Shown piece after piece: positions 15,233 through 48,426 of a stretch of 64,000 nucleotides of DNA (positions are counted from its first letter, which is position 1; each line of letters opens with the position of its first letter). The position numbers and the translations under genes are program-made. The notes below the pieces were generated by a model. It saw only the letters and a program-made list of their open reading frames with translations, was not told where the DNA came from and did not search any database. This DNA comes from Falsiroseomonas oleicola. Its GTDB lineage: Bacteria > Pseudomonadota > Alphaproteobacteria > Acetobacterales > Acetobacteraceae. The DNA lies in the NCBI RefSeq assembly GCF_019029495.1, contig NZ_JAERQM010000006.1:325115-389114 (forward strand), given 5' to 3'.

Positions 15233-15422
15233 CTTCCGGGCTTGATGCGTGCGCCAGTGCGGAGGCTGTGAATGCGGCTCATGCAATGTGAGCACATCTC
15301 CTTGGCGGCGGGCATTCAGTCTCGCCGAGGATGCAGGTTCGGAAGGAAACCTCATGCGCCTGCTACAGCGACATCGTCCGCCTGCCCCCAATGGCGCGCC
15401 GCCACCTCAGGCGGAGCCTCGG

Positions 15423-26401: not shown

Positions 26402-26902
26402 TCAGATCGTCGGTGCAAGCGGCCTCGCCTGCCAGGTGGCGATCTCGTCCAGCACGGCGTCCGTGACCGTGCTGACCAGGTCCGGCGAGACCTCGATGCC
26501 GTAGAGCTCCTCGAGGTGCCCTGCGATCTCCCGCGTGCTCATGCCGCGGGCGTACATCGACACGATCTTCTCGTCGAAGCCGGGAAAGCGCCGCTGGTAC
26601 TTGGCGATCAGCACCCGGTCGAAGCTGCCCTGCCGGTCACGGGGGATATCCAGCGCGATCCGGCCGGTGTCAGTGACCACGCTCTTGCGGCCGTAGCCGT
26701 TGCGGCTGTTCCGGGCGCCGCCTTCGCCCGCCAGATGGTGGTCCATCTCAGCGTTCAGCGCCCGCTCCGCCAATGCCTTCTTCAGCTGGTCCAGCAGGCC
26801 GCCCTGGTCAAAGGCCGTGCTGGCGCTCGCGCCAGACAACAGCTGGTCCAGCATCTCATCCGGGATCGTCGGAGCTTTCCGTCGGGTCATGGGGGTCTTC
26901 AT
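26402..26902 (-). pseudogene. IS256-family transposase, N-terminal part only
   Basis: About 166 codons matching the start of IS256/Mutator transposases: ALAERALNAEMDHHLAGEGG, NSRNGYGRKSVVTDTGRIAL, and DEKIVSMYARGMSTREIAGHL. A normal protein has about 400 residues with a DDE core; here the sequence stops after WQARPLAPTI. The break lies at about 26402. One terminal repeat survives upstream of the start codon. Confidence 0.88.
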
Positions 26903-31662: not shown

Positions 31663-33822
31663 TTAGCCCGGCAACAGTTCCTCGGCGATCCAGCGTTGTT
31701 GCTCGTTCAGCCGGTCGAGGGATGCACGAAGAGTATCCTTTAGGGTCTCGAGATCCGCGTCGGCTAGGCTCATTCGATCAAGAAGGATAGCCAGCAGGAA
31801 CTCGCCCAGCGCTTCGCCTTGCTGCCGGTCAGATAGGTCCACCATCTGGCGGATAAGATCGCCGACCAAGCGGCTTTCCTCAGGGGTGTCACGATAGTTC
31901 AACTCAATAGGCAGTGCCGCCCGAAGAATGGCCGCCTGAATTACACCGTCGTTGTATCGGGCGAACGTCTCACCAGACAGGACGGTGTGCGTCTGCGGGT
32001 CGTTCACGATACGGTGCTCCGGTAGTACATCGGCTCCCGTCCGGAGATTTTGCAGTATTGCGGCCATGGTAAGAAAGACGTCGGCTTGGCTGGCGGCGCC
32101 GCAAGGCGTGCCAACTGGCCAGAAGGCGAAATTATCGCGGAGCTTTAAACCTTCCTTCGCACCGGGCAGGAAGAGGTCATTCCTGAGTCCCGATGGACTA
32201 TTGTCCAGGAGCTGGAGCCTACTCGCGACTGTGTTCGGCAGGGTTTGGTCGAGTTCGGCTAGGTAATCCCGTTCTTTGTCCCAACTCTCCGACGCCGTCG
32301 CGCGATCGAGAAACACCTCGAACATCGAACTGAAACAGTGGCTGGGCTGTCTTAGGTTCGATTGCAGGAGGCCGAAAGCCCGTTTCGATGATGGTATCGT
32401 TGCCGCCGATAGGAAGATGCGATGGGAAGCCGGGGCGTAGCGGCGGAGTGCGCGGCTGATCGACAGCAACTTCTCGCCATGGCCCGTGGCGCCCCCGACA
32501 ATAACGATGGGGGATCCAGACACCGGCCATCCTGCCGTTTTGTCCTGCTCGATCTCGCTTAGCCCCAACAAGGTGACATTTTTGAGGTCGCCCCCATGCC
32601 GACGGATTGCCTCGATCAGGGCATCGGCCACGGACTTTGCCGAAGTATCCTTGTCGGGGTAGACGATGGCGCGAACAGAAGCCGGGATTTCGCGGATGAC
32701 AGTTTTCTCGACCCACTCCTTGAAGGGCTCCGTCTGACGGAGCTGTTCCACATCGATCCAAATCGCGCGGCGCGAACTCCGCTCGGCGTCGGCCTTGTAC
32801 GCGACGAATATCCCCTGGCCCTGGAGGCGCGAAATCTTTTCGGCGATGACCGTTGGAGCGTGCTTCAGCCCAGGCACCACGGTCCGCGCAGGTTCCGGCG
32901 CGGCGATGAAATGCTCGCCGATCAGCCGAATCGGCCGGGTTAAGGCTGGGTCGGGAGGAGGCGGGGCGGGCGGATATCCAGTGGGATTCAGCTTCTCGTC
33001 GATACGGAGATCACACAACACCTGTGTAGGCTTCGGCGGATCGCCGCCCATGGAGAACAAGGTTACGACACGCTCTGCGTCCTTTACACGGCTAGCGATT
33101 AGCCCAGCCATACTGCCCGACTGCGAAGCGGAAATCAGGACCAAATCGGCTCGGTCGGGGCTAAATGGATGGGTGTAAATCCCCCGGTAGGATTGAAACG
33201 TGCGCACCGTCGGCATCCTGGTCAACCGCTTTATCAAGAGCCCGGCAAGCACGACGCTGGCGATGGATGACGTGTCTAGGTGGACAAAATCCAGGTCGTC
33301 GGTTAGGTACGGCAGCAGCCAAAACGCCACGAAGAATATTTCGGCGCCTTCGGAAAGCGCGTGAGACGCGCGGAGAAACCGGGAATCGGTTTTCTTGGAT
33401 GGTTTCACGAAATGGGCAGTCGGCCCGGCTTCAAGAAGGCCCTGTCGCCGGTTGAACAGCTCCGTCAAGCCCTGGCGGCGAATGTGCTGGAGCGGGAGGG
33501 CTTCGGGTGGCGCTCCACGCAGCACCGCATGCCGTCGCACGACGCCAGCTTCGTCGTAAGAGTAAAGGCCGATAGACGTATCCACCGACAGCGTGTGGAA
33601 AGCAGAATTGTCTTCCTCCAGTTGGCTTCGTACCTCCGCAGCCCGATCCTTGGGATAGATGAGGTATGCGGCATCTGGGGACAGCGCGCGGCTCGTTTCT
33701 GACTTAATCGCGGCAGCAAGATCGTTGATCGAGAAAGCCGTCGGCCCGCAGAAGACGACGAGGGTGGAAATGGCTTGCGGATGCTCGGGCGTCCGGCAAC
33801 GGAACGCGTAGACGCTGCTCAT
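31663..33822 (-). CDS. Phosphoribosyltransferase-like protein, putative defence component
   Basis: 719 residues; I do not recognise a named family. Two stretches resemble the PRPP loop of type I phosphoribosyltransferases: LVLISASQSGSMAGLIASRV (about 228-246) and PIVIVGGATGHGEKLLSIS (about 438-456). In both, the usual paired aspartates are absent (GG in the second), so a binding or altered catalytic role is likely. Cytoplasmic, with no signal peptide or membrane segment. The ATG at 33822 overlaps the stop of the GHKL ATPase gene (ATGA), so the two are translated together. Their pairing points to a signalling or immune pair; this is inference. Confidence 0.65.
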   Translation of the reverse strand: MSSVYAFRCRTPEHPQAISTLVVFCGPTAFSINDLAAAIKSETSRALSPDAAYLIYPKDRAAEVRSQLEEDNSAFHTLSVDTSIGLYSYDEAGVVRRHAVLRGAPPEALPLQHIRRQGLTELFNRRQGLLEAGPTAHFVKPSKKTDSRFLRASHALSEGAEIFFVAFWLLPYLTDDLDFVHLDTSSIASVVLAGLLIKRLTRMPTVRTFQSYRGIYTHPFSPDRADLVLISASQSGSMAGLIASRVKDAERVVTLFSMGGDPPKPTQVLCDLRIDEKLNPTGYPPAPPPPDPALTRPIRLIGEHFIAAPEPARTVVPGLKHAPTVIAEKISRLQGQGIFVAYKADAERSSRRAIWIDVEQLRQTEPFKEWVEKTVIREIPASVRAIVYPDKDTSAKSVADALIEAIRRHGGDLKNVTLLGLSEIEQDKTAGWPVSGSPIVIVGGATGHGEKLLSISRALRRYAPASHRIFLSAATIPSSKRAFGLLQSNLRQPSHCFSSMFEVFLDRATASESWDKERDYLAELDQTLPNTVASRLQLLDNSPSGLRNDLFLPGAKEGLKLRDNFAFWPVGTPCGAASQADVFLTMAAILQNLRTGADVLPEHRIVNDPQTHTVLSGETFARYNDGVIQAAILRAALPIELNYRDTPEESRLVGDLIRQMVDLSDRQQGEALGEFLLAILLDRMSLADADLETLKDTLRASLDRLNEQQRWIAEELLPG

Positions 33823-35009
33823 CGCGCCAGCTCCCGGTTCAGCGGCAACATCGCTGTGATGACGGTTCCCTCTGCCCATGCCTGGGGTACGCTGGGCCTG
33901 CCGCCCCTAACCATATCCTCCATGGCTAGATCCTCTTCGGTCGGTTGGCCCAAGCCGGAGCCGTCGAACGCCTTTATGAGCGACAGCCTCCCGCTGCGGA
34001 TGCGGACGAAGCCTCCCGTGCGTTTCGCTACGTCCATAATCCGGAACAACCCGATCCCACTCGTGAGGTCGGACTTCGTTGTGCCACCCTTGCGTAGGCA
34101 CGCGCCAACCGCTTGGTACTCGACCTCTAGGGGAACGCTGTCGGCGATAATGCCCTTGTCGAGACCTACTGTCTTTGCAAGCCAGTTCTGAGCTAATCCG
34201 GGACCGCTGTCGAAAACCGACACCTCGACGAACTGAGCATGCCGCGCCCCGCCGCGAGGCGCCCAGCCCCCAAAATGAGCGCGAAGGGGCCCGTGCGCGC
34301 CCGCCATCCCCTGGAGCTGGTCAACCGCCAAGTAACGATACCCAACCAGAATGCCGCGGGTTGACCTCCGCAGCCGCACTTCCCGGAAATCGGTTCGAGC
34401 GTGGTCGTCGGTGTTTTTGAAGGCTTCCTGCACCAGCGCCGCGATTGCCCCCAACGTACCTGACCGCTCGACCGTCGGCATCCCCGGCCGGAGCGTCCTG
34501 AGGCAACTTCCGATCAAGGCCTCAAAGTCTCTGGCACTGCGGACGTCGACCGTGCCGGGAACGTACAGGCGGATCGGTCGCCGGTATTCTTGAGCGTTGT
34601 CAACGCAGACGATCGGGATGGCCGATTTGTCGATGTCGCGCAATTTGTCGAGCGCCCCTCCGTGCATGGCCAGGACGTAGTCTCTCGTCTGCAGTAACGC
34701 CTCGCGGCGCCCGACGGCTTCACCACCGGAGAGCGCGACCTTGCCTGCCATGTTTAGGGCGACGACTCCGAACGGCGTATTCGCAAAATTGTGGAAAGCA
34801 ACGTCATCGACGCGCTGTGCGTGAATGCGTAGACGCGAGTCCTCCTCGCCACGTACAGCCCAGGTGATGATAAGCTGGATGAGTGCAGCAAGACTGCCGA
34901 CCGCGCTCGCCTTAACTTTATTAGGAATACGCAACTCCGGTTCACCTAAAGCGATCCGGGAAAGCCCCGCCTCGAATTCATCAAGCGAGAAGTCTTTGTT
35001 AATACTAAG
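33819..35009 (-). CDS. GHKL (histidine-kinase-like) ATPase, no kinase core seen
   Basis: 396 residues. The Bergerat ATP-binding fold is visible: N-box LVQEAFKNTDDHA (about 193-205), G1 box DSGPG (268-272), G2 box SGIGLFRIMD (318-327) and a closing GTVITAMLPL. No phospho-acceptor H-box, transmembrane sensor or DNA-binding domain is seen, so it is more like MORC/Hsp90/MutL-style or anti-sigma-like ATPases than a two-component kinase. GGGGAG precedes the ATG at 35009. It is the first gene of a two-gene operon with the phosphoribosyltransferase-like gene. Confidence 0.8.
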   Translation of the reverse strand, partial: LSINKDFSLDEFEAGLSRIALGEPELRIPNKVKASAVGSLAALIQLIITWAVRGEEDSRLRIHAQRVDDVAFHNFANTPFGVVALNMAGKVALSGGEAVGRREALLQTRDYVLAMHGGALDKLRDIDKSAIPIVCVDNAQEYRRPIRLYVPGTVDVRSARDFEALIGSCLRTLRPGMPTVERSGTLGAIAALVQEAFKNTDDHARTDFREVRLRRSTRGILVGYRYLAVDQLQGMAGAHGPLRAHFGGWAPRGGARHAQFVEVSVFDSGPGLAQNWLAKTVGLDKGIIADSVPLEVEYQAVGACLRKGGTTKSDLTSGIGLFRIMDVAKRTGGFVRIRSGRLSLIKAFDGSGLGQPTEEDLAMEDMVRGGRPSVPQAWAEGTVITAMLPLNRELAR

Positions 35010-35540
35010 CATTAGACTCCCCGTGATGCGCATGGCTCAAGATCTTCGGCTCTCCGATGTGCCCCAAGCCCATCTCGTGTGAGGCTAGAATGAGATGAAA
35101 GCCCTGTGCCTTTGGCTCGAAGGCCGATTTGGTGCCTCGTCAATCATGGCAGCTTGCCGGACCACCCGCCAGCACGCTCTCCCGCCAAGAACCGCGTTAT
35201 CGCCCGGCGCCACAGCGTAGCAAAAACGATGAGGTGTGACCGTCCACTTTACTTCGGCGTTGCACCATACCGGACGGACTGGATTCGGCCAGACCACGCC
35301 AGAAGTGCAGTCTCAGACGGAATGCTGCTATGTCCGCTTGTGAGGGTGGCGCGGACATCGACATACCCGGGCTTCTACAGCCGCTTTCCGCCCAGACCCG
35401 ACGAAGCGCGGCCTTTTATGGATCAGGCGCTGATTGGCAGGCCGCGGCAGTCACACGCAACGGGATCGACCGCGCCGCCACCCCGGCATCAGCTGACTCT
35501 GACCATTACGCCGTGCCCGGCTCCGTCCTAGACTGTCCCC
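35010..35540. other. Gap between divergent defence-type genes
   Basis: About 530 bases with no convincing gene. A stretch near 35229 (GATGAGGTGTGACCGTCCA) resembles one near 20127. Promoters for both divergent units should lie here. Confidence 0.4.
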
Positions 35541-37280
35541 GTGACATCCCACGTGTTCCCCGTCGCCTGGTACGACGCGAACGCGGCTCGCCTCGCGGCA
35601 GACTACGCACGCGTTGACCCGTCCCTGGCGCTGAACTGGCTGCTCCCCCTCCTCCCGGACCCGCCCGGTCTGGTTCTCGACGTGGGTGCAGGTACGGGCC
35701 GGGATGCAGCATGGCTGGCCTCGCTGGGCCACAACGTCGTGGCCGCCGAGCCAGCCGCAGGCATGCGCGATCAGGCCGCACGACAGCACCCTCATGAACG
35801 CCTCCAGTGGATCGATGACAGCCTGCCTGCGCTGATGGCGATTGGACGCCTGGGTCTCGCCTTCGACACCATCCTGGTCAACGCGGCCTGGCAGCACGTC
35901 GCACCAGCGGACCGGCGACGCGCATTCCGGAAACTGGTCGGCTTGCTAAGGTCCGGCGGCGTCCTCGCCATGACGCTGCGGGACGGGCCTGCCGAAGCGG
36001 AGCGGGCGATGTTCCCCGCGCCGCTGGCCGAGGTCGAGGCGCTCGCGCGCGACCACGGCATGACCATGGTGCTGACCGAGCCAGCATCCGACGCTCTCGG
36101 CCGTCCGGAGATCAGCTGGACCCATGTTGCTTTCAGGCTGCCGGACGACGGAACCGGTGCGCTACCGCTCCTTCGGCATGTCATCCTCAATGACCAGAAG
36201 ACGTCGACCTATAAACTCGGCCTGCTCAGAGCCCTCTCAAGAATTGCCGATGGAATGGCGGGCCTAGCGAGGCACGTAGACGACGATCGCGTCGAACTCC
36301 CGCTCGGCCTCGTCGCGCTGACGTGGCTGCGCCTCTACCTGCCCCTAGTCGCCGCCAACTTGCCGCAGATGCCCGCGAACCGAGGCGCCGACGGACTGGG
36401 CTTCGCAGGCGACGGGTTCCGCGCGCTGCTCGGGGGCGTCATCCCGCGCCTCGACCTGCGCCTCGGCGCCCGCTTCTCGGGTGACGCCGCGCAGGCGGTG
36501 CACGCGGCGCTACGCGACGCAGCGACGACCATCACGCGCATGCCCGCAAACTACATGACGTACCCCAACGGTGGCGCAATCCTCCCCGTGACGCGCGCAT
36601 CCCCCAGGCTTCGCGGCACCGAGGTCGCACTCGACGCGAGCTACCTGTGGGACTTCGGCACCATGGAGGTGCCCCGGACGATGTGGTCGGCGCTCGGCAG
36701 GTTCTCTGCGTGGATCGAGCCCGCCGTGAACGCGGAATGGGTGCGCCTTATGCAGGGCTACGCAGCCAGCCAGGGACGCCGCCTTGACGAAGGTGCCATC
36801 GCGTCAGCGATGACGTGGTCGGACCCTACCCGCGATGTGGCATTGCCACGCCAGATCGCGACCAGGCTGCTGACCTCGGGCCGCCCGGTCCTTTGCTCGT
36901 GGAGCGGCAAATTGCTGAATGCCGAGCGGCTGGACATCGACCATTGCATGCCCTGGTCTGCCTGGCCCTGCTCTGACCTGTGGAACCTGCTTCCAGCGGA
37001 CCGCCGGGTCAATCAACACCTGAAGCGCGATCGGCTCCCAGCGGAGGCGCTGCTCTTGGCATCGCGGGGCCGGATGCTCGAATGGTGGGAGGCGGCCTAC
37101 CTGCCGCAGGAACGGCAGCTGCTTGCCGAGAGGTTCGTGGAGGAGGCGCGGGCAAGCCTTCCTAGCCTCGCTGGAGCAGCTTCGCTGGAACGGCCGGAGG
37201 ACGTGTTCGCTGCCGTCCGCGTGCAGAGGCTGCGGCTCAGGCGCGACCAGCAGGTCCCGGAGTGGGCGGGGATGTCCTGA
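35541..37280 (+). CDS. SAM-dependent methyltransferase fused to an HNH nuclease
   Basis: 579 residues. The N-terminal class I methyltransferase has motif I LVLDVGAGTGRDAAWLA (about 45-61), FDTILVNAAWQHV and LLRSGGVLAMTLRDG, ending at about residue 215. A helical middle region follows. The C-terminus has an HNH nuclease core, LDIDHCMPWS (about 463-472), WNLLPADRRVNQHLKRDRLP. The methyltransferase lacks the DPPY or PC motifs of DNA methylases and looks like the small-molecule/tRNA type. GTG start with a weak ribosome site. Pieces of paralogues lie at 25450 and 40373. Confidence 0.85.
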   Translation: MTSHVFPVAWYDANAARLAADYARVDPSLALNWLLPLLPDPPGLVLDVGAGTGRDAAWLASLGHNVVAAEPAAGMRDQAARQHPHERLQWIDDSLPALMAIGRLGLAFDTILVNAAWQHVAPADRRRAFRKLVGLLRSGGVLAMTLRDGPAEAERAMFPAPLAEVEALARDHGMTMVLTEPASDALGRPEISWTHVAFRLPDDGTGALPLLRHVILNDQKTSTYKLGLLRALSRIADGMAGLARHVDDDRVELPLGLVALTWLRLYLPLVAANLPQMPANRGADGLGFAGDGFRALLGGVIPRLDLRLGARFSGDAAQAVHAALRDAATTITRMPANYMTYPNGGAILPVTRASPRLRGTEVALDASYLWDFGTMEVPRTMWSALGRFSAWIEPAVNAEWVRLMQGYAASQGRRLDEGAIASAMTWSDPTRDVALPRQIATRLLTSGRPVLCSWSGKLLNAERLDIDHCMPWSAWPCSDLWNLLPADRRVNQHLKRDRLPAEALLLASRGRMLEWWEAAYLPQERQLLAERFVEEARASLPSLAGAASLERPEDVFAAVRVQRLRLRRDQQVPEWAGMS

Positions 37281-37597: not shown

Positions 37598-39049
37598 TCA
37601 CAACGCGCGAACCTTCTTGAACTCTCGCAGGACGGCCTGGACTGCTCTGGCCAGCGCTTGCGGCGGCAGGGACGGATTGTTGAGTGCCTTGAAGGCGTCT
37701 CTTGGGTACCAGGGCCAGCGCGCCAGCTCGGTCTGCGTGGCGGTCCACGCTCGGGCTGCGGCATGCCCGGTGGCGCCTATCGGGATCGGCACGCGGCCGC
37801 TGTCCAGAGTCATCCTGAACTCTTCCATGACGCCATCGGCGACCGACAGTGTCCCGTCGGCTTCGCGCTTCGCACCGGCGATGATCACGGTTGCGCCTGC
37901 CCGGCTGACCATTTCCTGCCGCCAAGCCCTCCAGAGTGCCGGGTCCGGCACTTCGCCGGGCGCCGGTTGAGGGAATGGTCGGAGCAGCATGTGCCTGTCC
38001 AGGCGCAGCGACGGCTGCCCGGTTCTGTTCAGCGCCCCCAGCAGGCCAGAGATGGCGGCAGATCCGATGGTGAGGCCGAAGCCCGACACCAGCCGGAAGC
38101 CCTCACCAGGAAGCAGGCCAGCGACCGCCTCAGCGACGGCGCTGGGAAGTTCACGCTCGGCCTCTGAAGCGATCTCAGGAAGGCTGCCCGAGATCAGCAC
38201 CGACTCCCTCACCGTTCGGAGTTCAACGCGCCCCAGCAGGGCGGGCACCTCGTCCCAGTTGTTAACCTCGACGAACTTGACGCCGTACCTGACCTCCCAG
38301 TCCTGGACCCACAGGTCGAAGCGCCGGTCAACTTCGTCCTGGTCTTCCGAAAGTTCGGCCTTGGGGCGCCGTGCGAGGCTGAAGTGCCGCGCGGCGCCGT
38401 TGCCGAACATTCGGCGCAGTGTGCTGAACATAATCGCCAGATTCGGATCTCGATGCCCGAAGCCGAGGAAGAGCATCCGCTTCCCGATCAGGTCGGCGGC
38501 AAGAGCCGTGAAGAAGCCCTCGCGTGAAGCTGCGTACTGGTCGTAGTGGTCCTTGGCGATGACGATGCTATCGAGGTCGCCGACGCAGCCGTGCATCTTG
38601 TAGAGCGTGCCATCCGCCCACGGAGGAGGTGCAACTTTGAAGTCCTCCTGATTACGCTTCACGTCGAGATGTAGACCCTGCTGCTTCCAGGCCTGCTCGA
38701 TGATTTGGTCGTAGTTGGTGGTCCAGATTGTCCGCAACTGCGACCGCGCCAGAATTTTCAGGGAGCGGGGAAGCCGGTCATCTGGGACAGGGCTCAGCGA
38801 ATCCCTGATGGTCTGTCGAAGCTCTGCGCCGCGATTTCCGCCTTGGTTCAGGTAATGCTGCGCCACCATCGCCAGGTCATCGAGGCGGTGGAGCTTGATA
38901 CGGAGTTCCTTGGCGCAGGTTTCCAAAAGGTCTGACCAGGACCCGTAGCCCGCCTCCAGGCTGACGCCGGAACCGACGAACAGCGATGCCTGGCCCTTGG
39001 CCAAGGCGTCACCCCATTCAGCGACGAAGGTCTCGGGCGATACCGCCAT
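37598..39049 (-). CDS. thsA: Thoeris ThsA: SIR2-SLOG NADase effector
   Basis: 483 residues. The SIR2 domain shows SLFVGSGVSLEAGYGSWSDL (22-41), TTNYDQIIEQ with Asn112, LYKMHGCVGDLDS with His153, and FLGFGHRDPNLA. The C-terminal SLOG domain shows LISGSLPEIASEAERELPSA and RLVSGFGLTIGSAAISGL (about 319-336). In Bacillus cereus ThsA, the catalytic pair is Asn112/His152, and the SLOG domain binds the cyclic ADP-ribose signal made by ThsB to trigger NAD destruction. Divergent from the two TIR genes, 66 bases away. The ATG at 39049 is the first family-like start. Confidence 0.93.
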   Translation of the reverse strand: MAVSPETFVAEWGDALAKGQASLFVGSGVSLEAGYGSWSDLLETCAKELRIKLHRLDDLAMVAQHYLNQGGNRGAELRQTIRDSLSPVPDDRLPRSLKILARSQLRTIWTTNYDQIIEQAWKQQGLHLDVKRNQEDFKVAPPPWADGTLYKMHGCVGDLDSIVIAKDHYDQYAASREGFFTALAADLIGKRMLFLGFGHRDPNLAIMFSTLRRMFGNGAARHFSLARRPKAELSEDQDEVDRRFDLWVQDWEVRYGVKFVEVNNWDEVPALLGRVELRTVRESVLISGSLPEIASEAERELPSAVAEAVAGLLPGEGFRLVSGFGLTIGSAAISGLLGALNRTGQPSLRLDRHMLLRPFPQPAPGEVPDPALWRAWRQEMVSRAGATVIIAGAKREADGTLSVADGVMEEFRMTLDSGRVPIPIGATGHAAARAWTATQTELARWPWYPRDAFKALNNPSLPPQALARAVQAVLREFKKVRAL

Positions 39050-39115
39050 GGCGCAATGCTTGTCCCGTTGTATAGGCGGCATGATATTCTAAATGCCGAT
39101 TCGAGAGGAACCTGC

Positions 39116-39712
39116 ATGGCGCGCCGCGTCTTCTTCAGCTTCCACTACCAGCCGGACGTCTTCCGCGCCAACGTGGTCAAGAACGCATGGGTCGGCCGCG
39201 ATCGGGAAGATGCGGGCTTCTTCAACGCATCTGTCGTTGAGGCGACGAAGAAGACCAGCGACGATGCGCTCCGGACATTCCTTCGGAAGGGCTTGGAGGG
39301 GTCGAGCGTCCTGTGCGCGCTCGCCGGGGCCGAAACGGCGAGCCGCCGCTGGGTGAGGTTTGAAGTGCTACAGGCGCTTCGGGATGGCCGCGGCATCATG
39401 GAAATCGCCATCCACGGCATCAAGTGCGCCAAGACAGGGAATACAGCGGCGGCCGGTTCATCGGTGTTGGGTGAACTCGGTTTCTGGGCTGGGGACGGCC
39501 GGGTGACGTTCATGGAAGTCGGGCCGGACCGGCAGTGGCGCCGAAACGACGACGTGCCGAGCATCGCTGTCAGCGATTTCCACTGGTCAGTGCAGGACAA
39601 GCAGGGCGTGAACCTCTCCTCAATGTTCAAACGCCACGACTGGGTCCTGGGCGACGGTTACGCAAATCTTGGGTCCTGGGTCGAGGCGGCCGCGAAGCAG
39701 GCGGGCTACTGA
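39116..39712 (+). CDS. thsB: Thoeris ThsB: TIR-domain signal synthase
   Basis: 198 residues matching the ThsB (DUF1863/MTH538 TIR-like) family almost from the first residue: RRVFFSFHYQPDVFRANVVK, then KKTSDDALRTFL and SRRWVRFEVLQAL. Glu83 in the last segment corresponds to the catalytic glutamate of ThsB. The C-terminus keeps HDWVLGDGYANLGSWVEAA. On sensing phage it should make a cyclic ADP-ribose isomer from NAD. GAGAGGAA precedes the ATG. It is divergent from thsA and ten bases before a second TIR gene. Confidence 0.93.
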   Translation: MARRVFFSFHYQPDVFRANVVKNAWVGRDREDAGFFNASVVEATKKTSDDALRTFLRKGLEGSSVLCALAGAETASRRWVRFEVLQALRDGRGIMEIAIHGIKCAKTGNTAAAGSSVLGELGFWAGDGRVTFMEVGPDRQWRRNDDVPSIAVSDFHWSVQDKQGVNLSSMFKRHDWVLGDGYANLGSWVEAAAKQAGY

Positions 39713-39722
39713 GGATCGGCAG

Positions 39723-40325
39723 ATGGCATTTATCACCCTCGGCGAGGCTCGCAGGCGCGGCATGACGCCGCCCCAGACGACCTCAGCCCGCGTGCTCAAG
39801 GAGGAGGCCGGAACCCTCCGCAAGAGCGCCGCCCGCTACGACATTTTCCTATCGCACAGCTTCAGCGACGCGACCTTGGTGCTCGGCGTGAAGCGAATTC
39901 TCGAGGAGGACGGGGGACTGCGGGTCTTCGTGGACTGGGTGGAGTACCCGGAACTGGACAGGAGCCGGGTGACCGCCGAGACGGCCGCGATCATCCGGGC
40001 CGCCATGGAAAACTCGAATTCGATGATCTTCACAACTTCGGAAACATCGCCCTCGTCGAAGTGGATGCCCTGGGAACTGGGCTTCTTCGATGGGAAGCGA
40101 GGGTCCGACAAGGTGGCAGTCCTTCCGCTGGTTGAGACCGAGGGCAAGGAGTTCAAGGGGCAGGAATATCTGGCGCTCTACGGACAGGTCGAGCGCCACG
40201 ACCTGCGGCTGACGAAGAGCGACGGCAGTTCACGCCAACTGCCGCGCGCCCTGGCCGTGGTCTCCTCACCGCGCAGCGCACGGGAGAGCTATACCTTGGT
40301 CCCCATGTTCGCCAGCCGCGGCTAG
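39723..40325 (+). CDS. Second TIR-domain protein of the Thoeris locus
   Basis: 200 residues. A TIR fold of a different subtype from the first: YDIFLSHSFSDATLVLGVKR (39-58), RVFVDWVEYPELDRSRVTAE, and SSKWMPWELGFFDG, in which Glu118 is the expected catalytic glutamate. The ribosome-binding site GAGGAT overlaps the stop of the first TIR gene, so the two form one operon. Thoeris loci with more than one ThsB are known; extra TIRs broaden phage recognition. The first 38 residues are an unassigned helical extension. Confidence 0.88.
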   Translation: MAFITLGEARRRGMTPPQTTSARVLKEEAGTLRKSAARYDIFLSHSFSDATLVLGVKRILEEDGGLRVFVDWVEYPELDRSRVTAETAAIIRAAMENSNSMIFTTSETSPSSKWMPWELGFFDGKRGSDKVAVLPLVETEGKEFKGQEYLALYGQVERHDLRLTKSDGSSRQLPRALAVVSSPRSARESYTLVPMFASRG

Positions 40326-40726: not shown

Positions 40727-43700
40727 TCAAAGCTCGTTCTGGTCCGGCAGGCCGCCGTCGTCCCTTAGGGTATACTTGATCGATACGGGGGCTGGTCCAG
40801 ATAGCGCCACACGAAACCCGAAGCGCATTATCAGGGTCCCATCCTCGGCACTGGGCTCTGCGACAAATTCGGCAGTTGCCAGATGGGAACCGCTAACGGT
40901 GAACTGGACAGCTGCGAGTGCGCGCCTGGAGACAACGATAGTCCAATCCGACGGCAGAAGGGCGTGAAAAAGGGGAATTCCGTTCAGGTCGAGAAAGTAG
41001 CCCTGTCGCGCTTCGTCCTGCCGAACCGCGACCGAGAGCCCAGCGGGAACAGGCGCGCCGTAGCCGTGCTTCCACCCGTTGAGCCAAATCAGACTGTTGC
41101 TCTGCGATACCAGGATGAGGACTTCGTGGGGCGGCTCGCCGATCCCATCGACGGCAGAAGTCACTGCATCGCACCAAGTCTCGGCATTTGCCACCTGCAC
41201 GACAGGCGTCGATTGATCCAGCAGCGCACTGCCGACCCCCCAGGCTGCCCGGTCGGCAAGCGCGCCGGGCAACAAGCCCCAGTCACTCTTTGCCTCAACG
41301 AGCCGCGGCGACGTGAACTCCCCGCGGGAGTAGCCTTGGAAGCTGATTTCTGCACTGTGCGCCGGGGTGAAAGATGCAGTCTCGACCCGGTCAAAGAGGT
41401 TCACGGGGCATCGGGCCATACCCGACGCAAAGGCCGCGCGCGCCGCATCGTCGGCAGTGGTCTGCAGCCGCACCTGATCAAGCGGCAGCGAGGTCAGAGC
41501 CGTCTCCAGGTTGGAGGCAACTTGCTGCCTGAGCTCTTGCAGGCGCGCGACGGCCCGTCCACGCCACTCGTCGAAGTCAACTGGGGTCGCCGACCCGGCC
41601 GGGTCATCAGACGTCAAGGCGGCGGCAATCGGGGACCATTCGGCGGCGTTGAGCGCGTGCAGGTTGCGGGCGAGTCGGTCGAGGTCCTGAATGGTGTGGC
41701 GAGCGGTTTGCGCTTCCCCAGCCGTCGAGGGCACCGCAGTGGCGGCCGCCTCACCCGGCTGCCCGACTGCCCGAGATGCCGCCGCGACCAAGAGCAGGGC
41801 TTCTGCGGCGCTCAAGTCGCTCGCCGGACCCGAAGACATGTAGATGCGCATGGAAACCATGTCTTGCGGCGCTTGGCGGGCGAGCGCCGACGCTACCCCC
41901 TCCAGGCCATCGCGCGACGCATCCAGCGTCGCGCGCAGGGTGCCACCGAGCCCGCTCCCGAAAGGCCGTTTGGACAGCCGCGAGTGAGCAGCCGTGTCGT
42001 GCAGTTCGTGCCGGAAGAGCATGCGCGCGCCAATAATTGATGGATCTTCCCGACCCTTCTGCGACGCCCAAGACAGCAGCACCTCGGCCAACGCGATCAA
42101 CACAAGGGCCCAGGCCTCCTCCGCCGCCGCACCGAAAGCGGCTCCTGGCGTGATACCAAGGCTGAAGCCGTCCGGCGCGAGCGTGTCCCGGACCTTCTTC
42201 CAATCCCTTTCCTCGATGAGGCTCGTGCTCACGCGCCGGTACATCGGCGGCAGGGGCGGATTGTACCCGGTCGCCTTTGACAGTTCATCTGGCCATCGCA
42301 GCAGCGCATCGATAGCCCAGCGCACCCCTTCGATGTCGCCGAGGCTCGCCGCCCTGGCCGCCATCCTGGCCGTCCCTTGCAGGTGGGCATTTATCGACGA
42401 CCAGCCGCCAACAAGCCGCTGCCACTCATCCTCCCCGTCCACCACAGGGGCCGTGCGCATTCGTTCGAGCAGAAGGTAGTTCCACGCACCGATCATGGTG
42501 CGCCAAGCTGCCGACTGGACGTCAGGTGCCGGTAGGACCTGGGGGCTGGCCAGTACGGCCGGTCCGCCGCCTGGCGCCCGCCTGAGGCGCATGGAGACAA
42601 AGTTGGCGAGCAATGGGAGCAGAGCGTCGCTCGCGGAAAGGGACGAGAGCGGCACGCGGCCTGCGGCGGCGGCAATCCTGGTTGGCAGATAGGCGGCCAC
42701 TTGGAGCAACTCGGGTCGAGAGAGCGAGACCTCAGCTACGCGCTCGAGCGCGTCCCGGTAGCACTCGCCCCATTCCTGGCCCAGCGTCGCGAATGAGCGC
42801 CGACCTGGTTGGTCCGCGTAGCTGCCAGAGTTCCCCTGCATGGCAGCCAGCCGCAGCAACAGGCCATGCAGGTCGGCAGCTTCGGCCAGCCGGACGCGAA
42901 GCTCCATGGAGTCACCCGCGAGCGTGGCAGCCATCATCTCATTCGCAGCGTCAGAGAGCAGGTCTCTGGATGACGGCGGTGTCGCCCAGTCCCCCGAATC
43001 TCGCTCGATGCTGAACGAGAGGCGAACGAGAAGGCGCTCCACCCGAGTCAGCTCCGCGTCCGCGGTCCATGTGGCGAGGGTAACCGGTCCTTGAACGGCG
43101 TCGCCCGGGAGAAGCGGGAAACTGACGCTGCGCCGCTCTGGCGAATGGAGCAGGTTGGCTCCGGCGGCCAGATCGCGACGTTGACGATCCGCCCAGGAGC
43201 CTGCCACCAAGTCGAGCAGCGCAACGCGCACGTCCCTCACAATGTGGGGCGTGCCTGGGAGGTGACGCACCACAGCGCCCCCTTTGCCGTGCCCTGCCGC
43301 GCGACCTGCTGCAACCTCGACGAGGGGTGACGCGGGTGAGATGGCCGCCGTGTTCACCTCCCGCCCTACCTGGGTCACGATCGTGGGCACGAGCAACTGT
43401 TCGAACTCCCTCGGCCAAGCCACGTTGCAGGCGTACGCGTGCCTGAGTGCCTGTCGTCCGGCAGGCGTGAGGAAAGCAAGTGTGCTTTTCAGGAAGAGGC
43501 CGATGCCGAGGAGGTTCCCAAGGAACCACACGAGGTTCACCGCCGTAAATCCGACGATGATAGAAATTGGTAGCGACGTGGCGAAGGCCAGGGCAACCGT
43601 TGCCGTCCCGCACAATGACAAGGCACTGGCGCCGACCTGGATGGCACCGGTCTGCCGGACGAAGATGAGCATTCTCGCACCGCCGGTTGACCGAGCGCCG

Positions 43701-44197
43701 AGCAGGACGCTGACCAAGGCTATGACGATGGGGTAGACGAGGCCGAGCAGCGTTGCCTGGGCGGAGAGGAGGGCCACGTTGACGTCACGCAGGACCGCCA
43801 ACGCCGAGGATGCGTCACCTTGGTTCGCCCCCTGGGACACACTCCCGCCGAGCATGCTGATGAGCGTAGCGTCCCCCACGAAGGCAGCTCCTCCGTACGC
43901 AGCGGTGGTACAAACCGCAAAGGTCGCCGCGGCGACCTTCCAGTTGGCCTGCAGCACGGAAAGGACGAACCGCACCGGGTGGCGACGGTGTGCCATCGCT
44001 TCATCGTTCGAGGCGTGGTGCTGTCGCACCCTGACGCGCGCCGTTACGCGTGCGCTTGGCCAGACGAGCGCGAGCATGGCCGCCGCCAGCAGTAGCCGGA
44101 TAGCGCGTGCGGCCATTAGACCCCGGAGCCGTATGGGACCCAGAGCCAACCTTAGCCGCTGGGCCGCCGAGTGAAGGTGGGAGAGCGTCGTTCTCAT
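40727..44197 (-). CDS. Very large membrane protein of unknown function
   Basis: 1156 residues in the longest reading. The first 260 residues hold four or five hydrophobic stretches: LLLAAAMLALVW, WKVAAATFAVC, LLGLVYPIVIALVSVLLGA, then VALAFATSLPISIIVGF and LVWFLGNLLGIGLFL. The remaining 900 residues are soluble, mostly helical, ending in a beta-rich domain (LIWLNGWKHGYGAP, YFLDLNGIPLF). No family is recognised. Start alternatives exist at 44116 and a little further in. Same strand as, and 262 bases downstream of, the kinase triad, so it may be a membrane partner of that system. Confidence 0.72.
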   Translation of the reverse strand: MRTTLSHLHSAAQRLRLALGPIRLRGLMAARAIRLLLAAAMLALVWPSARVTARVRVRQHHASNDEAMAHRRHPVRFVLSVLQANWKVAAATFAVCTTAAYGGAAFVGDATLISMLGGSVSQGANQGDASSALAVLRDVNVALLSAQATLLGLVYPIVIALVSVLLGARSTGGARMLIFVRQTGAIQVGASALSLCGTATVALAFATSLPISIIVGFTAVNLVWFLGNLLGIGLFLKSTLAFLTPAGRQALRHAYACNVAWPREFEQLLVPTIVTQVGREVNTAAISPASPLVEVAAGRAAGHGKGGAVVRHLPGTPHIVRDVRVALLDLVAGSWADRQRRDLAAGANLLHSPERRSVSFPLLPGDAVQGPVTLATWTADAELTRVERLLVRLSFSIERDSGDWATPPSSRDLLSDAANEMMAATLAGDSMELRVRLAEAADLHGLLLRLAAMQGNSGSYADQPGRRSFATLGQEWGECYRDALERVAEVSLSRPELLQVAAYLPTRIAAAAGRVPLSSLSASDALLPLLANFVSMRLRRAPGGGPAVLASPQVLPAPDVQSAAWRTMIGAWNYLLLERMRTAPVVDGEDEWQRLVGGWSSINAHLQGTARMAARAASLGDIEGVRWAIDALLRWPDELSKATGYNPPLPPMYRRVSTSLIEERDWKKVRDTLAPDGFSLGITPGAAFGAAAEEAWALVLIALAEVLLSWASQKGREDPSIIGARMLFRHELHDTAAHSRLSKRPFGSGLGGTLRATLDASRDGLEGVASALARQAPQDMVSMRIYMSSGPASDLSAAEALLLVAAASRAVGQPGEAAATAVPSTAGEAQTARHTIQDLDRLARNLHALNAAEWSPIAAALTSDDPAGSATPVDFDEWRGRAVARLQELRQQVASNLETALTSLPLDQVRLQTTADDAARAAFASGMARCPVNLFDRVETASFTPAHSAEISFQGYSRGEFTSPRLVEAKSDWGLLPGALADRAAWGVGSALLDQSTPVVQVANAETWCDAVTSAVDGIGEPPHEVLILVSQSNSLIWLNGWKHGYGAPVPAGLSVAVRQDEARQGYFLDLNGIPLFHALLPSDWTIVVSRRALAAVQFTVSGSHLATAEFVAEPSAEDGTLIMRFGFRVALSGPAPVSIKYTLRDDGGLPDQNEL

Positions 44198-44459: not shown

Positions 44460-46949
44460 CTAAGGTGCGGGTTCCATAAGCCCGGAAAATACCCATCCCC
44501 ACGGATCCTCTTCCCCGATCAGGACCCATCCAGCATTCCTCTCAAAGACCCTGAGCACGGCACCACTGGGCGCAGTTCGAACAACCGCCGAACTGCCGCT
44601 GGCTCCCGCCCTGACATTGGCCGCCTGCCTCATGATGACGCGTTCGCCGACGCCCGCGGTTGATGCTGCCGACGCCGGTCTGGATATCGGAGGTAGAGGC
44701 AGACTGGTCACAGTTCGAGTTGGCGCAAGTGCCTCGGGCGCTGAGGCTTGCTCGGACTTTGGCGCCTTAACCTCCGGCGTTGTCCGATCCGCCGAAGCGG
44801 GGCGAGGTGCTTCAGCCGATCGGCTTGGCGCTGGCGGCGCGGGCAGAGGAACTGGTAGCGTCACCACAGGGGTGACTGGCAAGTCTGTGGCTGCACTCGA
44901 AGGGCGATGTTCGATGATGGGAGAGCGATGTCCGATACCGGTGACAAGGGCGACGGCGGCCGCCGCGCCTGCCAGCGCGAGCAAGCGCTTATGGGTCGTC
45001 CTGTTCTCCGGCACGACAGCGGCGTCGGCTGCGGCCTGCGCATATTGAGGGCGGAGTTCCGCCACTCGACCTTCCAAGGCTTGGCGACGGCTCGTATGAG
45101 CGGCTGCCGCCGCTCGCATCCGGGCAAGCCCTGCCGCAACTTCGCGTTCCAGCTTTGTGCGCTGTGCCGCAATGTCTCTCTCGACCAATGCTATCTCGGA
45201 CGAGGAAACGCCTTTGCTCGGATCGAAGCGAAATGAGGCTTCGTGCGACCGGCGCCAGGCCAGCAGTTTGGCCACTGTGGCCGGGCCGAAGCCTGGCACT
45301 GCCAACAGGCGATGGCTGATGATGTCGCTGGCCGTGTCGATGCCATGGCTGGCCAGGGTGGCAACACGTGCCGGGCCGATGCCGGGGACCTTGGCGTTGG
45401 TCAGTGAGAAGTGGTCCAGATGGTCTTCGAGCTGCTTTTCCCGACGCTGCTCGTTCAGCTTCTGCATGCGCTTGGCGCGTTCGCCGTTGAGCCCATCATA
45501 CTGAGCCTTGAGACGAGTGAGGTTCGCCCTGATGTCCGAAGCGCTAGGCCCAGGCAACGGCATGTTCCAAGCGCGCCGAAGCTCATCCCATTCCCGCTTC
45601 AGTTCGCCCAGCCTTTGCTGAAACGGGTTCTGCTGCGCGTTCTGACCGATGCGGTGGATGATGAAGGCGATCACGCCGATGGCAGGCACCATCGCGGCGC
45701 GGAAGTCAGGAGAAGCGAAAGCGAGTGTTACCGCCAAGCTCGCAGCTACCGAACCCCAAGCAGCCGTCTTCAGGCTGCGTCCGCTCCCGGCCAATGCTTG
45801 CGCAGCTGGAGACGCCTGAACTGCCGGGCCGGGTGGAGGTGGACACTGACCCAGCAGAGGCGGGTCAGGGAGCTTGGAGACCTCCTGCCAAAGCGCTGCC
45901 ATACCGGTCGCGCCAACCGCACCGGGTTTGAACACCACGGGAAACAGCGTGATCCCACTCGCATTCTCAATCGCGCACCACGGACAGGCGCTGAGCCCCT
46001 TGCGGTAGAAGTGGGCGCCGTTCGCGCCGCACGACTTCAGATCAGATGCGAGTTCACCTAAAGCCGTGACCCACTGGTCAGCATTCGGTCGTCCAGCACG
46101 TGCTGCCCCGGGAGCGAAGGCTCTCTCGAACAGGTCCTGGATGGAGGGCGTCAGCGCGTCAACTGGGAGGCTCCCTGGAGGAGGCTCCATGGCTGTGCGT
46201 GAACGGTCGCGCGAGTAGGCATAGCGGGACGCCTTGATCGCATCCTCGATTGAGGGCGGTTCGCCAGGACCCTTGTATCGTCCCGCAAAAGGATGGCGCG
46301 CAATGCAGAGCAGCTGGAAGACGATAACTGCCAAGCCAAAGCTGTCGTGGTTTGGCGTCCTCAACACACCGGCGTAGCTGTCGAGGGCCTGCATTTCCGG
46401 AGGTTGATGCGTCCCCACCCCGACCTCACAGAACCAGGTCTTCCCGGCCTGCGTCACCTGGAAGCTGTCGCAGTCAATCATGCGGACCGTGGCGTCTTGA
46501 CCAACCACAAGATTGCCGTGGTTGACATCGCCGATGACCAGTCCCGCAGCGTGCACGGTCGAGAACGAGCGTGCGGCATTGGCCGCAGCGTGGATCAGGA
46601 AGCGCCAGTCGGCAGTCGGGAATTCCTGCATTCGCAGTTTGGGGCCGTACAACTTAAAGACCGGCTCGTGCCCGCCGACCTTCGGCATCATAAAACCTGC
46701 AACCGAGCCCGACGGCTCGTGGAGCGTTCCGGTCGGCCAAGCTGCGATGCGTAGAAGCGGAGCAGACGCCATCCCAGCCATGGCTGACAGCTTCGCGGCA
46801 CGCTGGGCGCTGGGAGCCTTGAGGTAGACCTTGGCGACCGCGTCGGGTTTTCCGGCTACGTCGAACACCGCCCCCTCGCCACCACGACCGAGCTCCTTCC
46901 CAAGCGTGACGGAGTTGCCCCGAGCATCCAGGAGCCGACCCGGCTTCAC
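44460..46949 (-). CDS. YegI-type protein kinase with HhH and SH3 domains
   Basis: 829 residues. The kinase domain shows a glycine loop LGRGGEGAVFDV (about 20-31), Lys40 in VAKVY, the catalytic loop GDVNHGN (140-146) and DCD in place of DFG. A zinc-ribbon-like CPWC follows at about 335. Then come a hydrophobic pair (about 395-440), a coiled coil, a helix-hairpin-helix unit (KVPGIGPARVATLASHGIDT and VPGFGPATVAKLL), a third hydrophobic segment, a proline-rich linker and a C-terminal bacterial SH3 domain (ANVRAGASGSSAVVR). This matches the kinase of YegI/PphC/YegL or TerY-P triads. The start overlaps the phosphatase stop by four bases. Confidence 0.88.
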   Translation of the reverse strand: MKPGRLLDARGNSVTLGKELGRGGEGAVFDVAGKPDAVAKVYLKAPSAQRAAKLSAMAGMASAPLLRIAAWPTGTLHEPSGSVAGFMMPKVGGHEPVFKLYGPKLRMQEFPTADWRFLIHAAANAARSFSTVHAAGLVIGDVNHGNLVVGQDATVRMIDCDSFQVTQAGKTWFCEVGVGTHQPPEMQALDSYAGVLRTPNHDSFGLAVIVFQLLCIARHPFAGRYKGPGEPPSIEDAIKASRYAYSRDRSRTAMEPPPGSLPVDALTPSIQDLFERAFAPGAARAGRPNADQWVTALGELASDLKSCGANGAHFYRKGLSACPWCAIENASGITLFPVVFKPGAVGATGMAALWQEVSKLPDPPLLGQCPPPPGPAVQASPAAQALAGSGRSLKTAAWGSVAASLAVTLAFASPDFRAAMVPAIGVIAFIIHRIGQNAQQNPFQQRLGELKREWDELRRAWNMPLPGPSASDIRANLTRLKAQYDGLNGERAKRMQKLNEQRREKQLEDHLDHFSLTNAKVPGIGPARVATLASHGIDTASDIISHRLLAVPGFGPATVAKLLAWRRSHEASFRFDPSKGVSSSEIALVERDIAAQRTKLEREVAAGLARMRAAAAAHTSRRQALEGRVAELRPQYAQAAADAAVVPENRTTHKRLLALAGAAAAVALVTGIGHRSPIIEHRPSSAATDLPVTPVVTLPVPLPAPPAPSRSAEAPRPASADRTTPEVKAPKSEQASAPEALAPTRTVTSLPLPPISRPASAASTAGVGERVIMRQAANVRAGASGSSAVVRTAPSGAVLRVFERNAGWVLIGEEDPWGWVFSGLMEPAP

Positions 46950-47752
46950 GGGAGCACGGTCCTGGCAGGCGGCAGCGCTCGGGTTGCCATCACGAGGGTC
47001 TTGTCGTCGTCAGTGCGACGATTGACGTGATCCGAGTCGAGGTAGGCTAGCAGTCCTGGGGAAACGCACCCGGAGTAGTCAGGCTCAGTCCCTGCGAGCC
47101 ATTCGAAGATCGGCTGGAACGCCGGGCCGTGCACGGTCCTGGCCGACATGTCGAGCACAAGGCGCTCGATGCCGTCGGAGAAAAGCGCGATCTGATCCAT
47201 TGCAGGTTGGACTTCGAACTGCAGGACGCGCTCGGCGCCGTCCTGGGTGATGAAGTAGGTGCTGTTCGCGTACTCCCCATGCTGCGGCCAAAAGATCCAG
47301 GAATAGCCTTGAGCCTCTGCGGTCGAGACTACGATCGCTCCGTCGCCAATCTGGACGTAGGCGGCCATGCTCGGCCCGACCACGGCGCCGAGCAGGGTGC
47401 ATGCATATTCATTGGGCTCAGCACCGTCTTGGACGGCACGCGCCCCGATGGCGTCGCGAACTTCGTCGAACCATTCCTCTACGAAGGCGTGGTCCACCGT
47501 CTTGAGGTCGGATGATGCTGCTCCGGCCAGGGCGAAGCGCTCCAGGAAGCTCTCGACGACCAGCGCGGAACCGACATCAGATCGCTTGGCCGTGCCAGCC
47601 CCGTCGCTTACCGCGGCGACCAGGACCTCCGTTCCATCGGCAGCCTTCACCACCCGGCAGGCACCGGCATCCTGGCATGGGGTGCCGTTCTTCTGGTGCG
47701 AGGTACCGATTGACGAAGCGAATGCAGTCCGCCAGCTCCTCCCCGTGATCAC
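46946..47752 (-). CDS. PP2C-type protein phosphatase (PphC/YegK-like)
   Basis: 268 residues from a GTG start that overlaps the vWA stop (GTGA). PP2C features are GTSHQKNGTPCQDA near the start, the metal aspartate in AAVSDGAGTAKRSD, YVQIGDGAIVV, ALFSDGIERLVLD and a closing DDDKTLVMAT. It should dephosphorylate Ser/Thr residues modified by the neighbouring kinase. The frame is open to 47839, but that part lies inside the vWA gene. Coupled by four-base overlaps to both neighbours. Confidence 0.88.
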   Translation of the reverse strand: MITGRSWRTAFASSIGTSHQKNGTPCQDAGACRVVKAADGTEVLVAAVSDGAGTAKRSDVGSALVVESFLERFALAGAASSDLKTVDHAFVEEWFDEVRDAIGARAVQDGAEPNEYACTLLGAVVGPSMAAYVQIGDGAIVVSTAEAQGYSWIFWPQHGEYANSTYFITQDGAERVLQFEVQPAMDQIALFSDGIERLVLDMSARTVHGPAFQPIFEWLAGTEPDYSGCVSPGLLAYLDSDHVNRRTDDDKTLVMATRALPPARTVLP

Positions 47753-48426
47753 ACTGCTGACCAACCAGATGGCGGCGGGAGGGCCACGAGCTGGCCCGGC
47801 TGGGAACGGGCAACACCCCCCAGAGAACTCGACAGCCAAGTAAACAACTCGCGGAAGCTCAGGCCCTGCAGCTTCAACGGCGGACGGCTGGGGCTGCAGA
47901 TCTGCCCGAGCTTACTCATGTCGGCGCCTTCGACACCAACGGCGAAGAAGCTGAATGCCTTCCGCTCCGGGTTGTCGCCTTGACGAACGCGCTCGGCCGC
48001 TGCGGCATAGCTATCTGTGGGCGCGCCGTCAGTGATGAGGAATACCCACGGACGGTAGTACGCAACGCCTGCATGCTTGTAGATGCCCTTTCGGGTCTCC
48101 AGCATGTCCAGGCCCTGCATGATTGCTGAGCCCATCGGGGTGTCGCCCCCAGCTTGCAGAGTCGGGGGTTGGAAGACATCAGCGGTTTCGAAATCCGACA
48201 GGACATTGACCGGTCCGAAGGTCATCATGGCGACCTCGACCCTCTGGGAGGCCATGGCGTCGCCGGTCAGTTCCTCCCTGAAGGTTCGTAGGCCGTCGTT
48301 CAGCGCCGCGATGGGCCTGCCGTTCATGGATCCAGAAGTGTCGAGCAGCAGGAGGCACGGACACCTCGGCTCGGGGTTCTCAATGAGACTAGGGGGGACG
48401 AAGGGGATCTGATCGGAAAAGCTCAT
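47749..48426 (-). CDS. vWA-domain protein (YegL/TerY-like)
   Basis: 225 residues. The metal-ion-dependent adhesion site is complete: DTSGSMNG (Asp29, Ser31, Ser33), the threonine in GGDTPMGSAI and the aspartate in FLITDGAPTD. This is the TerY/YegL type that leads kinase-phosphatase triads, thought to act as a metal-regulated scaffold or substrate of the kinase. First gene of the three-gene operon, divergent from the DUF4236 gene 171 bases away. Confidence 0.9.
   Translation of the reverse strand: MSFSDQIPFVPPSLIENPEPRCPCLLLLDTSGSMNGRPIAALNDGLRTFREELTGDAMASQRVEVAMMTFGPVNVLSDFETADVFQPPTLQAGGDTPMGSAIMQGLDMLETRKGIYKHAGVAYYRPWVFLITDGAPTDSYAAAAERVRQGDNPERKAFSFFAVGVEGADMSKLGQICSPSRPPLKLQGLSFRELFTWLSSSLGGVARSQPGQLVALPPPSGWSAV

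Follow-up and report, generated by a model that had tools for sequence, protein, structure and literature searches.

Proteins of the phosphoribosyltransferase (PRTase) fold are described in conflict settings as the PRTase-like effectors of type III retrons (PMC12548924, accessible part), and for the anti-phage Ter systems a nucleotide signal has been suggested as the product of two PRTases (PMC7824862 and PMC5512222, as far as their available text goes). A GHKL ATPase domain is in turn hypothesised to control the defence effector of the Shedu protein VcSduA (excerpt of PMC12137116). Further systems are listed in the PADLOC database as PDCs, unpublished candidates obtained by 'guilt-by-embedding', for most of which, among those discussed, validation is pending according to the available portion of PMC12988326. 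Here we analyse a 64,000-nucleotide stretch of Falsiroseomonas oleicola (contig NZ_JAERQM010000006.1, positions 325,115 to 389,114; hereafter the window) and, within it, a gene pair encoding a GHKL ATPase (gene A) and a tandem PRTase-like protein (gene B).

In PADLOC-DB 2.0.0 (2023), B matches the model PDC-M65B over 701 residues (E 6.5e-96) and A matches PDC-M65A over 391 residues (E 8.2e-27); as PDC-M65 is defined by M65A and M65B matches in adjacent genes, the window pair falls under this entry, and judged by sequence the locus is a plain member of the catalogued candidate system. A preliminary description of the window, made from its letters alone, had regarded the pair as undescribed and without a named counterpart, which does not stand since PADLOC-DB already holds both proteins, whereas the composition it proposed, a GHKL ATPase with a PRTase-like protein, is supported. 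PDC-M65 reportedly stems from a preprint by Payne and co-workers, and no publication on it was found in the literature, preprints and most subscription papers being outside our reach.

Our preferred reading, to which we give a probability of roughly 0.4, is that of an anti-phage pair in which an ATP-gated GHKL switch controls a pseudo-PRTase acting as sensor or effector. It is supported by the PADLOC match of both proteins in order, the coupling of A and B, the invariant GHKL residues and the orotate phosphoribosyltransferase (OPRT) fold of B. A defence role as such, which rests on genomic context, appears likely to us, because relatives of the pair adjoin Qat or sit near Avs1 and the window pair lies near Thoeris; the mechanism is what we infer beyond this.

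The two genes form an operon on the - strand, in which the TGA stop of A and the ATG start of B share the ATGA at 33822-33819, as had been recognised in the preliminary description. Gene A likely starts at the ATG 35012-35010 behind a GGAG at 35020-35017, giving 397 residues, with an alternative ATG at 35033; the limits assigned earlier were thus correct to within three bases, their end at 35009 stopping three bases short of the ATG at 35012 (397 residues, not 396). B has one match in the host's own genome, and no match to a promoter or terminator was found upstream of the pair.

Gene A carries the GHKL signature (N-box E..N, G1 DxGxG, G2 GxG). The alignment behind the residue counts for A (A3) comprises the window protein and 75 of the 76 eligible A frames, L093 and the plasmid loci being left out. 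HATPase_c is reached at E <= 0.1 by 15 of these 76 members, the window protein not among them, and Pfam and NCBIfam searches of A, its N-terminal part included, gave no match to a DHp or sensor domain or to any other. The predicted structure (predicted local distance difference test score, pLDDT, 92.1) finds its best Protein Data Bank (PDB) fold matches in the ATP-binding domains of kinases, namely the CckA CA domain (probability 0.99) and CheA P4 (probability 0.97), both at E of about 1.1e-2 and none at E <= 0.001; by these matches the model has a Bergerat-type fold, though at an E of only about 1e-2. From its motifs and its model, gene A is a GHKL ATPase with an intact ATP site, in agreement with what had been proposed from the letters.

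The length of gene B is confirmed at 719 residues. The window protein has no Pfam match at E <= 1, and searching Pfam, NCBIfam and PDB sequences with the window pair, like profile searches of the PDB, returned nothing usable. The predicted structure (pLDDT 92.2, predicted TM-score 0.81) has the OPRT 9e5g as best PDB match (E 6.3e-6, probability 1.00), followed after further OPRTs by HGPRT, APRT, PyrR and PurR structures, the aligned query range not being printed by the search; a viral fold search gave PRTases and one PRTase-CE protein at low TM-scores. In profile alignment, both central domains align in register with a PyrE profile (d1, P 0.013; d2, P 0.0097) and with each other (P 0.0026), whereas the N- and C-terminal domains reach only P 0.28 and 0.33 in the same comparison. 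In the hood region, the family B profile also matches PyrE at 14 loci (E 1e-6 to 1e-4), which are not an independent draw because the PADLOC B model had brought those loci in. As candidate pairs, the 14 loci matching the M65B model most weakly (L009-L022) were rejected, a purpose-built PyrE profile identifying them as PyrE.

The acidic pair in the phosphoribosyl pyrophosphate (PRPP) loop of type I PRTases is absent from B at both d1 231-232 and d2 443-444 in 83/83 proteins, aligned (A2) from the window and 82 of the 83 eligible B frames of L037-L119 with L060 and the plasmid loci left out. Positions 443-444 are mostly Ala, Gly or Ser and Asp in none of the 83, and Asp or Glu occurs in a few members further along at 447-448 (e.g. 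Asp in 6/83 and 5/83), off the place of the PRPP pair. As no Asp is found at the expected positions of either loop in any of the 83, the missing aspartates are a family trait, and the two PRTase-like loops lacking them, noted for the window protein alone at the outset, are borne out for its relatives. Invariant throughout are D183, S211 and S231 of the d1 pocket, and E674 of the C-terminal domain. By sequence and model, gene B is a PRTase fold with both PRPP aspartate pairs missing. A CxxC pair between d1 and d2 (window B residues ~280-300) is seen in the family consensus and in the outlying loci L008 and L170; it is missing in window B.

With a profile built from 12 B proteins, 183 candidate stretches of species genomes yielded 129 relatives, 80 of them retained, and viral contigs added 3 more; 11 plasmid records hold a B match, and the phage records searched gave none. 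Across the 93 loci examined (10 plasmid, 80 genome and 3 viral, the short fragment L036 left out), gene A lies directly upstream on the same strand in 90, with 68 overlapping, 22 at 0-10 nt and none farther, spacing being taken from the first possible start codon and the overlap count approximate. The three loci without A have B starting 45, 166 and 310 bases from the contig end. In 4/93 loci A or B is split in two pieces; pairs with A or B in two reading frames or holding a stop are L034 (11591-13944), L004, L037, L085 and L117. The distance matrices of A and B over 76 shared members agree with r 0.94 (reached in 0/2000 permutations), as expected for a linked unit.

By phylum label, the 93 rows divide into 44 Pseudomonadota, 29 Bacteroidota, one each of Planctomycetota, Acidobacteriota, Campylobacterota and Thermodesulfobacteriota, and 16 without label, so that the co-occurrence extends to six labelled phyla and well beyond the genus. 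The window groups with Acetobacter persici, Caulobacter radicis and Falsigemmobacter at a Shimodaira-Hasegawa-like approximate likelihood ratio test (SH-aLRT) support of 100. The tree needs 7 phylum changes where the minimum possible is 5, which hints at some transfer without proving it. Within groups the pair is sparse: it occurs in 5/394 genomes of what we took as the family of G450, and a strong match is present in 6/398 genomes of a draw from the phylum, the window's own included.

Next to the window pair stands a methyltransferase-HNH gene (35541-37280, + strand), whose methyltransferase part matches mad2 (E 2.4e-17), followed by a Thoeris set (37598-40325) consisting of ThsA (E 1.8e-119) and two different ThsB-like TIR genes whose frames overlap each other and run divergent from ThsA; Pfam and PADLOC matches thereby confirm both neighbours named in the preliminary description. 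For the relatives, the scan covered 282 of the 289 proteins encoded by up to two nearest genes on each side of the pair in the 80 genome loci, with 7 large proteins omitted. The two halves of these neighbours (141 + 141 proteins) match 322 and 179 PADLOC families at 1e-10, as against 5 families with one member each for 130 proteins from place-picked stretches of genomes of the same phylum (19 of 20 requested stretches exist; 130 of their 234 proteins were used), figures which do not give an enrichment factor because one protein can match many families. The neighbour families include type I restriction-modification (R-M) subunits, type IIG, Argonaute, a CBASS cyclase and SEFIR. BLAST clusters resembling HsdR, HsdM and HsdS touch 13/93 loci (assigned as clusters, Pfam counts agreeing in kind), and Hsd-like genes stand directly before or after the pair in some, e.g. 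L098, L104, L106 and L116. On plasmids, defence-type neighbours were recognised in 5/11 annotated loci (L026-L035 and L170, L036 left out): ThiF/multiubiquitin or TIR in L026 and L027, Qat in L032, ThiF with nucleases in L034 and Avs1 in L170. In keeping with the association with defence islands that the preliminary description proposed to look for, defence genes are among the neighbours, which match many more PADLOC families than the small control does; B, for its part, folds like OPRT, a metabolic enzyme, but has no PRTase motif and has defence genes nearby.

Two outlying loci, L008 (from a genome of the same phylum) and L170 (Cupriavidus necator pHG1, where the pair lies one gene from avs1c and avs1b), encode GHKL and tandem-PRTase pairs. 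Their B proteins match the family B profile at E 2.2e-27 and 2e-15, respectively, and the A protein of L170 matches the A profile at E 8.9e-22, that of L008 falling short of E 0.01 and being recognised by eye from its motifs. Both B proteins keep a pair of aspartates (DD) in d2 (FLDDVFITG and IIDDVAYG), aligned with window G443-G444, and none in d1; D183 and S231 of d1 are kept in both as well as in PDC-M65, which suggests that the d1 pocket is under selection. L008 and L170 branch together opposite the other 91 rows (SH-aLRT 99) and have the two longest branches, the root serving for drawing only. The DD-bearing form looks rare in these sequences, as 396 genomes gave no match to L008 B other than itself, and plasmids none outside two Cupriavidus necator H16 records. 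Read from the alignment, an ancestor with a live second PRTase, which was then lost in PDC-M65, would be the simplest reading; a gain of DD in the outliers would be a less simple one.

A gene for a flavin adenine dinucleotide-dependent thymidylate synthase (ThyX) adjoins the pair in 6/93 loci, upstream in L026, L027, L028, L049 and L083 and downstream in L084, and these six together with L081 form one Rhizobiales clade (SH-aLRT 99). Judging from gene order, we take ThyX as a clade-specific third, accessory gene of the pair, and its association as a hint, not extending to the window, at thymidylate metabolism. The genomes of L049, L083 and L084 have no ThyX match other than the pair-linked one, and a ThyA match at another place; in the window's own genome, ThyX presumably has a housekeeping role, as it is encoded on another contig and there is no ThyA match. 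The idea that ThyX occurs only together with the pair came from a first draw (ThyX in 2/81 genomes, both previously known pair carriers) and was rejected, since a larger draw has ThyX without the pair in 10/389 genomes. Among the 394 genomes taken as the G450 family, ThyX matches 13 (2 weakly), the pair 5 and both 3 (Fisher P 0.0003, or 0.08 without two genomes known beforehand); in the third co-carrier, G645, apparently the genome of L081 and also known earlier, thyX-A and B lie on different contigs, and neither G624 nor G745, which both carry the pair, has a ThyX match. Beside the ThyX-bearing pair of L027 lies a dGTP triphosphohydrolase gene (14482-15825), which as a query found no other copy at E 1e-5 among the loci collected by then. 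A thymidylate synthase domain is among the newly validated defence domains of DefensePredictor, and the accessible part of that source gives no link between it and the pair (PMC13092281).

Put together, A would serve as an ATP-driven conformational switch, and B would be a pseudo-enzyme of two OPRT-like PRTase domains and a conserved helical C-terminal domain, the two forming one complex. The d1 pocket with its invariant D183, S211 and S231 would no longer transfer phosphoribose and might instead bind a nucleotide-like ligand or a phage cue. Ligand binding together with the ATP state of A could then let the C-terminal domain (R622/N624/D625/Q629/R634/E674) pass on an output by which the infected cell is stopped, plausibly via its pyrimidine nucleotide supply. 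Several points weigh against this reading. No phage assay of the pair was found in the literature, and the contact between A and B as well as the step from ligand to cell arrest are inferred. The HH probabilities of the B domain alignments are low (3-11%), so that fold and motif order carry the PRTase assignment. Among the first 25 PADLOC families listed for the neighbours, the best-populated one has 6/141 and 4/141 members. The scans count families, not proteins, and type I R-M models that overlap one another make up many of the listed ones; the control is small and unmatched and covers a single phylum. No defence-type neighbour was recognised in 6/11 annotated plasmid loci, and ThyX is confined to one clade and does not stand at the window pair.

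Alternatively, B might still be an enzyme whose d1 pocket, with D183, does new chemistry such as base exchange, nucleotide hydrolysis or the making of a nucleotide signal, A being its ATP-dependent activator. D183, S211 and S231 are invariant (83/83), D183 and S231 persist in the two DD-bearing outliers, and the ThyX of one clade directs attention to pyrimidine deoxynucleotides; an invariant residue is not by itself proof of catalysis, however, the aspartate pair of PRTases is missing at both loops and the sequence of B matches no solved structure, so that we hold this for possible and rather doubtful. We judge it improbable that A works as a histidine-kinase or anti-sigma type protein kinase that phosphorylates B or a host protein, and that the pair switches neighbouring defence operons without being a defence itself. 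The best fold matches of A are indeed kinase ATP-binding domains, gene sets like type I R-M adjoin the pair in some loci and the kinase pair CapK/CapS is published to control immune operons (PMC13373217, accessible part), but A lacks a fold match at E <= 0.001, neither A nor B matches a DNA-binding or receiver domain in Pfam or NCBIfam, and the neighbours vary between loci. A toxin-antitoxin-like or plasmid-maintenance pair with phage effects as a side effect would suit the tight two-gene operon and its presence on 11 plasmid records and 3 viral contigs; it seems still less probable for proteins large for such a module and also found on chromosomes (L083, L089, L092). A metabolic role in regulating pyrimidine synthesis, with no link to defence, which the OPRT-like fold of B and the ThyX of one clade might suggest, is very unlikely given the sparse occurrence (5/394 and 6/398 genomes) and the defence genes as neighbours.

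As a bolder and improbable extension of the ATP-gated switch reading, the GHKL ATPase and its twice-dead PRTase may be an immune receptor that reads pyrimidine nucleotide pools through a repurposed pocket and descends from a form with an active second PRTase, as kept near Avs1 on Cupriavidus pHG1; the private ThyX of the Rhizobiales would then join an attack on thymidylate supply or shield the host from it. Should pyrimidine nucleotides prove to be what the pair senses or depletes, it would amount to a metabolic immune system gated by a GHKL protein, and the clade with ThyX lends itself readily to genetic testing. In any case, a candidate defence pair so far uncharacterised now has a predicted fold, specific residues for mutagenesis and a possible route by which an active enzyme became a dead one. 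The features on which these considerations rest are collected in Table 1.

Table 1. Features of the pair in window coordinates, with their basis.
Feature	Position	Strand	Basis
Gene A, GHKL ATPase, 397 aa, PDC-M65A	33819..35012	-	PADLOC match, predicted fold, GHKL motifs
Gene A N-box, residues 196-200	34413..34427	-	E196 and N200 invariant, 76/76 aligned A proteins
Gene A G1 box DSGPG, residues 268-272	34197..34211	-	D268, G270, G272 invariant, 76/76
Gene A G2 box GIG, residues 319-321	34050..34058	-	G319, G321 invariant, 76/76
Overlap of A stop with B start, ATGA	33819..33822	-	Sequence; spacing also tight in relatives
Gene B, tandem PRTase-like protein, 719 aa, PDC-M65B	31663..33822	-	PADLOC match, predicted fold
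B domain d1, ~residues 115-315, OPRT-like	32878..33480	-	Fold and profile alignment; limits approximate
d1 PRPP-like loop, residues 231-235	33118..33132	-	S231 in 83/83, no Asp
B domain d2, ~residues 320-505, second OPRT-like domain	32308..32865	-	Model and profile alignment; limits approximate
d2 residues G443-G444	32491..32496	-	Align with DD of L170 and L008 relatives
B C-terminal domain, mostly helical, ~residues 515-719	31666..32280	-	Predicted structure
Most conserved motif of B, residues 622-634	31921..31959	-	R622, N624, D625, Q629, A630, R634 in 83/83

Elsewhere in the window, all on the - strand, an 829-residue protein that matches SH3 and HHH and, weakly, a kinase is followed by a PP2C phosphatase and a VWA protein (44460-48426), which looks like a kinase-phosphatase-VWA triad by its domain matches and which we take to resemble the Ter type. 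Two adjacent radical SAM genes (49999-52859) have weak matches to prokaryotic-viperin models (E 3e-6 to 5e-5), and a 790-residue protein (55482-57854) carries a Tle1-like phospholipase domain of the type VI secretion system. A Mutator-family transposase fragment (26402-26902) covers profile positions 5-157 of 379, and a 1156-residue protein (40727-44197) is matched in neither Pfam nor PADLOC and, in NCBIfam, weakly by one model (E 0.04).

Compared with known systems, B resembles PyrE, an OPRT, in its fold and in a weak sequence match to the hood region, but differs in that it has two copies per chain, lacks the PRPP aspartates, carries further domains at both termini and is paired with a GHKL partner. 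The type III retron PRTases and PRTase-CE (PF24390), the latter matched weakly by L008 B (E 0.076, below cut-off), differ from window B, whose partner is a GHKL ATPase; no reverse transcriptase family appeared among the window proteins scanned, which did not include every gene, and no dedicated search for a retron reverse transcriptase or non-coding RNA was made. Unlike in the Ter systems, the window operon is without Ter genes and B without PRPP motifs. In VcSduA the GHKL domain is fused to a nuclease domain, whereas in the window pair it has a gene of its own, adjoining that of the pseudo-PRTase. A PRTase in a figure legend of DefensePredictor (PMC13092281, accessible part) could not be linked to the pair, because one Pantoea B gene found nothing in E. 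coli genomes at the DNA level. The split into dead and live PRTases and the ThyX variant were not found in the literature searched, parts of which were accessible only as excerpts. From PDC-M65, finally, nothing essential differs, the window pair being the same, near full length and adjacent; the PADLOC entry as shown gives no function, and the present analysis adds to it the predicted fold, the absence of the PRPP motifs, the outlying relatives with DD and the variant with ThyX.

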